From Melioribacteraceae bacterium (GTDB taxonomy: Bacteria; Bacteroidota; Ignavibacteria; Ignavibacteriales; Melioribacteraceae), in NCBI GenBank assembly GCA_011525875.1, contig WYBN01000001.1, forward strand, positions 1 to 64,000: a stretch of 64,000 nucleotides of DNA, in the 5' to 3' direction. A program made the translations under genes and the position numbers. Below the pieces are notes generated by a model, which saw nothing but the letters and a program-made list of their open reading frames with translations, was not told where the DNA came from and ran no database searches. Below are positions 33,832-36,344 of this stretch, in pieces; within the stretch, counting starts at the first letter, position 1; each line of letters opens with the position of its first letter.

Positions 33832-34212
33832 TTATTCGGGAAGGGTAACGATTTTTATATTCTCGACATTTTCTGACGGAAGCTGCAAGAGTAGATCACG
33901 AACTTTTTCGAGTAAATTTCCTGGAACACCCAAGAACAATTTCACCTTGGATGAGGAGTATTTTGTATTTCTGGAAGATAGATATTTGATTTTATTCAGA
34001 GTTTTAGGATTGTCTAAATCTTCTTTATTTAATATCAATCCTATAACATATTTCTTTTTGTATTTACCGATTGCATCTACGTCATATTTCCCGATTGGAT
34101 TAGGGGAGGGCAGATACTGCCCGTGCTTTCTGCTAACGGTTAAATAACCATCTTTCCAGAAATGATTGATCAACTTGTCTACTCTGTCCTTATGTGAGAT
34201 CATCTTTTTCAT
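33832..34212 (-). CDS. Unknown small protein resembling a degenerate PD-(D/E)XK nuclease, lexA operon
   Basis: A 126-residue protein with no signal peptide. An N-terminal helix (HKDRVDKLINHFWKDGYLTV) precedes YLPSPNPIGKYDVDAIGKYKKKYVIGLIL, which looks like the core strands of a restriction-endonuclease-like fold, where D-V-D-A-I-G would be followed by an E-x-K strand. Here that strand reads Y-V-I-G-L, so the catalytic Glu and Lys appear to be lost. LFLGVP and a C-terminal helix follow. It is the third gene after lexA (5 bases after the WYL-like gene) and probably shares its damage control. The fold is an inference from pattern only; it may be unrelated to nucleases. Confidence 0.55.
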   Translation of the reverse strand: MKKMISHKDRVDKLINHFWKDGYLTVSRKHGQYLPSPNPIGKYDVDAIGKYKKKYVIGLILNKEDLDNPKTLNKIKYLSSRNTKYSSSKVKLFLGVPGNLLEKVRDLLLQLPSENVENIKIVTLPE

Positions 34213-34217
34213 TTTAA

Positions 34218-34466
34218 TCAGCTTGCAATCGGTAGAATTGGAATAATTGGCGAAAATCTGGTTGTTCCCAGAACTCGAATATTGAAAATTTTCGCATATT
34301 CAAATATTGAAACTTCTGATGAATTGTTTTTTCTGCCAAATAAGACTTTTTTCCCATGCCTGTCCCTGCTTATGTAATACGGTTCGATAATAATTTCATC
34401 TAGTCCGTACAAAAATCTTAGTTTTCTTCTGCATCTAATGGCGTTTGAGAATATTTCACTTTTCAT
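34218..34466 (-). CDS. Small WYL-domain-like protein, lexA operon
   Basis: The 82-residue protein reads like an isolated WYL fold without its usual HTH. It has an N-terminal helix AIRCRRKLRFLYG, then DEIIIEPYYISRD with the strand pattern Y...(I/V)EPY, VLFGRKNN, and a last helix EYAKIFNIRVLGTTRFSP. WYL domains bind nucleotides or nucleic acids and regulate DNA repair and defence genes. AAGGAGG is ideally placed before the ATG. It lies 20 bases after lexA on the same strand. A role in the DNA damage response is inferred from position and fold impression only. Confidence 0.6.
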   Translation of the reverse strand: MKSEIFSNAIRCRRKLRFLYGLDEIIIEPYYISRDRHGKKVLFGRKNNSSEVSIFEYAKIFNIRVLGTTRFSPIIPILPIAS

Positions 34467-34486: not shown

Positions 34487-35116
34487 TTAAAACCATCTAA
34501 AAACACCCAATGCCTTCCCTATAATCGTAAAGCTTTCTGAATTGTTAACCTCGATTGGAGCGTAATTCTTATTTTCCGGTATTAAATAAATAATATCGTT
34601 TACTTTTTTGTATCTCTTTAATGTTGCTTCATTTTCGAGAAGAGCAACCACAATATCCCCGTTAAGAGCATGGTTTTGCGGACTTACTATAACAATGTCC
34701 CCATCAAAAATTCCGGCTTCAATCATACTGTCACCACGAACTTTTAAGCCGAACGAATCCGAACGGCTTTTTAATAAACTTGCTTGTAAAGTTAAAGAGC
34801 CTTCAATATTCTGCTCAGCAAGAATGGGCTGCCCGGCAGCGACTCTGCCAACTACAGGTATTTCAACAACTTCTTCGGAAATTCGGTTTCGTCCAGATGC
34901 AAGCTCTGTAAGTGATATGGTTCTACTTGCATTAAACTCATTGTTCAAATAACCTTTTTTAGACAAAGCATCAAGATGACGTTTCACCCCGAATGTGCTT
35001 GATATTCCAAAATTCTTTCCGATTTCTCTATATGTTGGGGGATAGCCGTTGAATTCAACAAAGTCCTGTATAAATCGCAGGATGTCAAGTTGTCGTTCTG
35101 TAGGTTTTGTTTTCAT
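34487..35116 (-). CDS. lexA: LexA repressor
   Basis: The 209-residue SOS repressor has an N-terminal winged helix (TERQLDILRFIQDF, GYPPTYREIGKNFGISSTFGVKRHL) and a C-terminal self-cleaving peptidase. The scissile bond is Ala94-Gly95 in VGRVAAGQPIL, the nucleophile Ser130 in GDSMIEAGI, and the base Lys167 in EATLKRYK. RecA filaments trigger autocleavage and derepression. Two palindromes over its promoter indicate autoregulation. The ATG has no clear Shine-Dalgarno site, unlike the strong site of the next gene, so its translation may be weak. Confidence 0.96.
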   Translation of the reverse strand: MKTKPTERQLDILRFIQDFVEFNGYPPTYREIGKNFGISSTFGVKRHLDALSKKGYLNNEFNASRTISLTELASGRNRISEEVVEIPVVGRVAAGQPILAEQNIEGSLTLQASLLKSRSDSFGLKVRGDSMIEAGIFDGDIVIVSPQNHALNGDIVVALLENEATLKRYKKVNDIIYLIPENKNYAPIEVNNSESFTIIGKALGVFRWF

Positions 35117-35125
35117 AATATTCTA

Positions 35126-35145
35126 TAGTGTTAATTTGTACACTA
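35126..35145. promoter_or_regulatory. Proximal candidate LexA operator (TAGTGT-N8-ACACTA)
   Basis: A 20-base interrupted palindrome with perfect 6-base arms, TAGTGT and ACACTA, and an 8-base centre. It lies 10 bases upstream of the lexA ATG and downstream of the -10 box, over the likely transcription start and 5' end. Its 19-base core (35127-35145) is the exact reverse complement of the core of the second copy. Confidence 0.7.
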
Positions 35146-35176
35146 CAAATATAGTGTACAAATTAACACTTGTCAA
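35146..35176 (-). promoter_or_regulatory. Promoter of the lexA operon
   Basis: On the minus strand TTGACA (35176-35171), a 17-base spacer, and TATATT (35153-35148) continuing to TATATTTG. It is the same type as the prs promoter. The spacer is filled by one operator and the next operator starts just after the -10, so repressor at either would block polymerase. Confidence 0.75.
35152..35171. promoter_or_regulatory. Distal candidate LexA operator (TAGTGT-N8-ACACTT)
   Basis: The second palindromic copy, with AGTGT and ACACT arms around 8 bases, sits between the -35 and -10 boxes of the lexA promoter. Its 19-base sequence (35152-35170) is the exact reverse complement of 35127-35145. Centre-to-centre distance between the copies is 26 bases. 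Confidence 0.7.
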
Positions 35177-35224: not shown

Positions 35225-35250
35225 AAAAAAAAGCGGCTCATAAGCCGCTT
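35225..35250 (-). terminator. Rho-independent terminator of ilvE
   Basis: An 8-bp perfect stem (AAGCGGCT / AGCCGCTT) with a 4-base loop is followed on the minus strand by eight T residues. It lies 24 bases past the ilvE stop and insulates lexA from ilvE transcription. Confidence 0.85.
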
Positions 35251-35273
35251 CTGAAAAAGTTTACAATTTCATT

Positions 35274-36344
35274 TTAATCAAGAATTTTCATCCAGCCGTA
35301 ACGGTCTTTAATATGACCATATTGAATGCCGGTTATTTCGGAATAGAGTTTTTTGCCAAGTTCGCCGGCTTCGTCTTCACTAAATTTCATTTCCAAGTCA
35401 TTGTATTTGAGCCTGCTTAATGAAGATATAACAGCAGCCGTTCCTGTCCCGAATATCTCTTTCAATTTCCCGTTTCGATAAGCTGCAGCGACTTCATCAA
35501 TAGAAACATCGCGTTCAGTGATATTGTAGCCCCAGTCTTTAAGAATCTGAATTACAGAAAGTCTTGTAACACCGGGAAGTATTGATCCGGTTAATCTTGG
35601 TGTTACTACTTCATCCTCAAAGTGGATAAAGATATTCATCGTTCCAACCTCCTCAATATACTTTTGCTCAATGGCGTCCAGCCAAAGTACTTGTGAATAG
35701 CCGGCGGCTTTTGCTTCTCTTTGAGCCATTAGGCTTGCGGCATAATTTCCGGCGCATTTACAAGCTCCAACTCCTTTTGCTGCGGCTCTGACATATTTAT
35801 CGGTAACCATAATAGGGACGGGTTTAAAACCTTCCGGATAATACGGGCCGACCGGACTGAGCAGAATTGCGAACTTGTACTCCTCTCCGGGTCGAACCCC
35901 AAGAAAAGGATCTGTAGCGAACATAACCGGTCTGATGTACAAGGCATGTCCGGCTTTTGTTGGTATCCATTCGCGGTCAACTTTAACTAACTCGTCAAGT
36001 GCATGAAGCACAAAGTTATTATCCAATTCCGGCATACATAATCTTGATGCGCTGCTATTCATTCTTTCAATATTTTTATCAGGTCTGAAAAGACCGATTT
36101 TGCCATCTACTCTTTTAAAGGCTTTTAAACCTTCAAAAATTGCCTGACCGTAATGAAACACCATAGCAGCAGGACTAAAATCCATTTTACTTAGATTTCT
36201 GATAGTAGGATTATACCAGCCATTCTTTTTTGAACTATAATCCATTTCGAACATATGTGAGGAAAAAGTTCTCCCGAAAATCAAATTATCGGGCAGTTCT
36301 ACCTTACTTTCTTTCCTCTCGGTTTTAATTATTATTTCAGACAT
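35274..36344 (-). CDS. ilvE: Branched-chain amino acid aminotransferase
   Basis: The 356-residue PLP enzyme of fold type IV performs the last step of Val, Leu and Ile synthesis. It is the long BCAT form: FHYGQAIFEGLKAF, the PLP lysine in a GNYAASLMAQREAKAAGYSQVLWLD-type stretch before KYIEEVGTMN, and EIFGTGTAAVISSL near the end. AGGTG lies before the ATG and a strong terminator follows, so it is likely a single-gene unit. Confidence 0.95.
   Translation of the reverse strand: MSEIIIKTERKESKVELPDNLIFGRTFSSHMFEMDYSSKKNGWYNPTIRNLSKMDFSPAAMVFHYGQAIFEGLKAFKRVDGKIGLFRPDKNIERMNSSASRLCMPELDNNFVLHALDELVKVDREWIPTKAGHALYIRPVMFATDPFLGVRPGEEYKFAILLSPVGPYYPEGFKPVPIMVTDKYVRAAAKGVGACKCAGNYAASLMAQREAKAAGYSQVLWLDAIEQKYIEEVGTMNIFIHFEDEVVTPRLTGSILPGVTRLSVIQILKDWGYNITERDVSIDEVAAAYRNGKLKEIFGTGTAAVISSLSRLKYNDLEMKFSEDEAGELGKKLYSEITGIQYGHIKDRYGWMKILD

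Follow-up and report, generated by a model that had tools for sequence, protein, structure and literature searches.

The lexA promoter and its two boxes

We analysed a stretch of 64,000 nucleotides (hereafter the window) from a Melioribacteraceae bacterium of the order Ignavibacteriales (contig WYBN01000001.1, positions 1 to 64,000), in which two palindromic boxes lie over the promoter of a lexA gene. From upstream to downstream the promoter and the gene read as follows, R1 being our sequence-only model of the box:

35171..35176, minus strand: -35 element TTGACA, from a promoter scan
35153..35170, minus strand: predicted LexA operator O1, the promoter-spacer box, AGTGTTAATTTGTACACT on the lexA strand; exact palindrome, in the same place in the lexA promoters of relatives, top R1 match in its own genome
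35148..35153, minus strand: -10 element TATATT (TATATTTG), from the promoter scan
35127..35144, minus strand: predicted LexA operator O2, right after the -10 and spanning the predicted transcription start, AGTGTACAAATTAACACT on the lexA strand; exact palindrome, inverted and conserved counterpart of O1 26 bp away, R1 match
34487..35116, minus strand: lexA (LexA1), 209 aa; TIGR00498 at 215.9 bits (cut-off 110.95), PF01726 and PF00717, and alignment

As the window is read, the boxes are two exact AGTGT-N8-ACACT 18-mers at 35127-35144 (AGTGTTAATTTGTACACT) and 35153-35170 (AGTGTACAAATTAACACT), with their centres 26 bp apart, and over 19 bases each is the reverse complement of the other. They form the only inverted repeat in the window with arms of at least 18 bases within 30 bp. 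The promoter, TTGACA and TATATT separated by 17 bp, agrees with the consensus at 11 of 12 positions; O1 occupies its spacer and O2 begins 3 bp beyond the -10, so that the lexA promoter is overlain by palindromic sites, as is expected of a LexA operator (SOS box). The first-pass annotation had described these twin palindromes, one in the spacer and the other just past the -10, and both their coordinates and their symmetry were reproduced exactly and agree with the promoter as scanned. The -10 element fits the Bacteroidota-type TAnnTTTG as well.

The LexA protein itself is of the canonical kind, with a winged helix-turn-helix (wHTH) and an S24 peptidase domain. Read off the sequence, the recognition helix is STFGVKRH, the Ala-Gly cleavage site lies in VGRVAAGQPI, and the Ser/Lys pair is found in GDSM and ATLKRY.

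The box pair is very probably a double LexA operator for autorepression, with binding predicted from the sequence. One LexA dimer, on O1, would cover the spacer between the -35 and the -10; another, on O2, would lie over the start point. RNA polymerase would then be unable to hold or to leave the promoter. Upon DNA damage, RecA on single-stranded DNA (ssDNA) would cause self-cleavage of LexA, and an operon of lexA, a WYL-like gene and a nuclease-fold gene would be released. The binding of LexA, the joint binding of two dimers and the induction by damage are steps that we infer from established knowledge of LexA.

The box in the order and its targets

The lexA loci were drawn from 294 genomes of the class, and the promoters were read for the window's own family (f1) and own order (f2, f3). 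Aligning the lexA upstream regions of relatives, as had been suggested at first pass, revealed that the inverted box pair is conserved throughout the order. It precedes lexA in the window and in 49 order relatives, almost always spaced by 26 bp; G039 and G199 have a spacer box shortened by 2 bp. The spacer box, taken as its reverse complement, and the downstream box fit a single oriented consensus, AGTGAACAaaTGwGCACT, which implies that the perfect inverted repeat of the window is its own version of a conserved inverted pair. For the order the consensus is AGTG-nnCAnnTGnn-CACT, and its nearly invariant part is AGTG..C....G..CACT. Of the motif first proposed, AGTGT-N8-ACACT, the palindrome is real, but the T in the fifth position is not required; judged from the alignment, it is one local spelling of the order-wide box.

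R1 was run over 28 genomes, and its E-values are rough. In genomes with lexA, the lexA pair came first or nearly so, and most of the remaining strong matches in relatives were located at a gene of a C-family polymerase (dnaE2) or at dinB. The box-bearing polymerase gene encodes only the C-terminal half of DnaE (C-half; fingers, HhH and OB, about 560-600 aa). A box scoring at least 17 was found at 29 of 30 such loci, typically immediately past the -10 of a promoter resembling TTGA...TATAATAT, whereas none of the 30 recA promoters of the order (L292-L321, the window's own genome included) carried a box of either the LexA1 or the LexA2 type (Fisher P 5e-16); LexA2 is the second LexA described below. 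Some dinB genes in relatives also bear the box, likewise just past the -10. Among 16 further promoters of Y-family polymerases (420-aa type) there was one with a box, in G257, and 15 without, and G086 separately has one. Only four genomes lacked a lexA above the cut-off; three of them (G245, G263 and G283) had no box, and the single match in G009 was inside an open reading frame. Lower-scoring R1 matches elsewhere (L222, L227-L230, L354, L361, L366) were judged to be chance or repeats.

The same site thus occurs at other SOS genes in relatives, and the placing of recA under LexA, the core of the classical SOS response, is not seen. This suggests an SOS network that is built around mutagenic polymerases and does not include recA. 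The first-pass annotation had proposed a scan for the box at repair genes, and the expectation held for the dnaE2 C-half and for some dinB genes in relatives, but not for recA, and in the window's own genome the scan gave no target besides lexA. Its reading of the boxes as a candidate SOS box for LexA autorepression gains support from both the conservation in lexA promoters across the order and the presence of the box at genes of error-prone polymerases.

Judged from the gene sequences, the order has its error-prone DnaE2 in two pieces, each with a gene of its own (L397-L404). The N-terminal half (N-half; PHP and palm, about 530-580 aa) is a separate gene that ends after ...LIKIDLLSQRSLGV, the site of the third catalytic aspartate. 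Both halves were found in 43 of 67 order genomes, the C-half only in 2, the N-half only in 2 and neither in 20. The C-half carries the LexA box, and the N-half is often distant: in G119, G165, G180 and G305 it is located hundreds of kb from the C-half and has no box. In G113 (L402), G226 (L403) and G029 (L404) the N-half follows dinB, N-half and C-half are divergently oriented, and a single box sits in the stretch separating dinB from the C-half. Reading by eye showed no intein-like extension on the DnaE2 halves, and a literature search for split DnaE2 found only the intein-split DnaE of cyanobacteria and a possibly split ImuB. The split DnaE2 is absent from the window's assembly, which is 81% complete. 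Short C-half-like genes are present in family f13 too, and the genes of f4 and f12 are mostly full-length.

Box codes, recognition helices and other explanations

The order box has the same centre, register and AC-N4-GT core as the Gram-positive box GAAC-N4-GTTC of Firmicutes and Actinobacteria. Some sites of relatives hold the latter whole, as in AGT-GAAC-AAAT-GTTC-ACT (AGTGAACAAATGTTCACT) at a dinB-like gene of G086. In the order box, however, the outer AGT/ACT is nearly invariant and the inner positions are loose, and the sites of the window read GTAC-AAAT-TAAC, which is not the full Gram-positive box; the AC-N4-GT frame alone is shared order-wide. The recognition helix differs as well, STFGVKRH in the window's LexA as compared to SSTVHGH in Gram-positive LexA. 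With E. coli CTGT-N8-ACAG the box shares a LexA-type palindrome, but the half-sites in the window are AGTG/CACT and not CTGT/ACAG. The first-pass statement that the motif matches none of the three boxes it named was right for the enterobacterial box and for the full GAAC-N4-GTTC, but the motif is not unrelated to the Gram-positive one. The lexA promoter of E. coli contains two operators, and the window's lexA promoter likewise has two boxes.

In neighbouring groups, SOS control of error-prone polymerases is found, as is predicted here. The motifs described there, GGA-N5-TCC and CTAA-N5-TTAG for non-canonical LexA in Bacteroidetes (PMC8565304) and the direct repeat TTACACATATTTTWTACATA in Balneolaeota (PMC7739468), differ from the order box in sequence, spacing or symmetry, and the DNA-binding domain of the Bacteroidetes repressors is of the CI type, as opposed to the canonical wHTH of the window's LexA. 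According to a title cited in PMC8565304, Geobacter sulfurreducens has a two-lexA system, and its box is GGTT-N10-AACC (PMC8565304). There is a likeness, as many order relatives carry both lexA1 and lexA2 and neither box type was seen at recA, and a difference, in that each lexA of the order has its own, distinct box. A literature search found no paper on a LexA motif that names Ignavibacteria and no published motif for the group.

The second, divergent lexA (lexA2) is present in 15 order genomes, and in 14 of them it has the box ACCATACAAATGTATGGT, ACCATAC-N4-GTATGGT (upstream regions L145-L158). According to the coordinates it lies on the same strand as dinB in ten genomes, about 1-5 kb off. 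It was not found in the window's genome. LexA1, LexA2 and the LexA of family f10 each form one group in the tree, LexA2 on a long separate branch; this branch and an identity of 38% do not support a recent duplication of LexA1 as the origin of LexA2. Family f10 has the box TAGTAGAAATATGTCTACTA (L104, L106, L108, L109, L111, L114, L120, L121, L123-L125), f18 the box TTAGACATATGTCTAA (L162, L163), and f19 has ATAGTATATA-like repeats (L200, L201). The recognition helix is STFGV-K/Q-RH in the order's LexA1, W-N/S-HG-x-ERH in f10 and NRATVQQH in LexA2, and helices and boxes vary in step. Within one class there are thus several LexA boxes with a common AC-N4-GT core and differing outer bases. With a concrete LexA code and matching helices, a change of DNA code should be testable by the exchange of a few residues, and one order with two LexAs and two codes is a natural testing ground for the duplication model of how LexA motifs change.

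The boxes could be mere chance palindromes in an AT-rich promoter. Base composition predicts 0.07 exact AGTGT-N8-ACACT sites per window and about 2.6 per genome, and the genome has 3, a total near expectation, of which two are at the lexA promoter. When up to two mismatches are allowed, its 489 sites are even outnumbered by the 747 of the reversed control, and as the loose pattern is not enriched, the pattern by itself does not reveal the regulon. Yet about 50 promoters, down to about 52% LexA identity, keep the position, the pairing and the sequence of the boxes, which makes chance practically out of the question: the bare motif is uninformative genome-wide and the pair at the lexA promoter is informative. 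With a matrix made from relatives, the window site left out, O1 and O2 score 20.9 and the next-best site in the window 11.2. If the 44-bp inverted repeat served as a hairpin in RNA or DNA (attenuator or cruciform) instead of as two protein sites, this would agree with the arms being perfectly complementary over 19 bp in the window. Among 46 genomes, however, at least 17 of 18 positions match in just two, the window's and one more, and the mean arm match is 13.5/18 within genomes and 13.1 between them (permutation P 0.004), a small difference that relatedness can explain. Each box is, moreover, itself a palindrome, lone boxes are found at dnaE2, and since O1 precedes the start point, a transcript from the lexA promoter cannot contain both arms. 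The hairpin was rejected after this comparison of arms and is exceedingly improbable.

A dimeric repressor other than LexA1 could also bind the boxes and govern both lexA and the polymerases, as binding is here predicted from sequence and LexA2 is also present in many relatives. The lexA2 genes bear a different box, though (14/15), genomes with a single LexA (G000, G086, G153) retain the AGTG box, three of the four genomes without lexA1 are without the box, and lexA is usually controlled by the protein encoded next to the operator. We find such a repressor very unlikely. Several points weigh against the double LexA operator. In the window's own genome, an assembly in 14 contigs, the box was found at no repair gene besides lexA; recA has none, and this incomplete assembly yielded neither dinB nor dnaE2, so that the regulon visible in it is the lexA operon alone. 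The genome scans scored the best 150 of 648 first-look candidates; among these the two lexA sites were the only R1 hits in the own genome, and the other good-scoring sites that were read fall inside genes. Furthermore, the matrix was made from lexA promoters, which leaves only the results for dnaE2, dinB and the lexA-less genomes as independent, at 20.9 the window's sites fall short of the order median of about 24, and relatedness inflates all of the conservation counts.

The lexA operon

Two more genes follow lexA in the window, and a hairpin lies upstream of its promoter:

34218..34466, minus strand: orf82, second gene of the lexA operon, 82 aa, stand-alone WYL-like domain; 20-nt gap after lexA
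33832..34212, minus strand: orf126, third gene of the lexA operon, 126 aa, PD-(D/E)XK-like fold; 5-nt gap after orf82
35229..35252, minus strand: terminator-like hairpin behind the upstream aminotransferase-like gene, setting that gene apart from the lexA promoter

Both orf82 and orf126 were present downstream of lexA at 19 of 19 loci of the order, as compared to 0 of 11 loci of family f10. In the orf82 family, 12 of 20 members matched the WYL domain PF13280. The AlphaFold2 (AF2) model of orf82 (pLDDT 88.5) has the C-domain of DriD with ssDNA as its top structural match (Z 12.1), followed by PafBC and CapW. The model of orf126 (pLDDT 90.9) gave middling matches (Z 7-8) to NucS/EndoMS, XisH and restriction enzymes. 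In the alignment, D46 is the only invariant one of its acidic active-site residues and no E-x-K was seen, which suggests that orf126 is possibly an inactive, DNA-binding relative of these nucleases.

Damage responses driven by ssDNA-binding WYL domains are described for PafBC (PMC11804915) and DriD (PMC12340889), and the modelled WYL mini-protein encoded in one operon with lexA deserves to be followed up. It is conceivable, if rather doubtful, that the twin operator runs a three-gene damage-response operon of the order, in which the stand-alone WYL domain senses ssDNA, as in DriD and PafBC, and works together with the nuclease-fold protein, while the same box controls half of a split error-prone polymerase in relatives. 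Should this be true, two principles of damage sensing, an ssDNA-sensing WYL domain and LexA, would be coupled in one SOS operon. The aminotransferase-like gene upstream of the lexA promoter, assigned by reading its translation, is located at 35274-36344.
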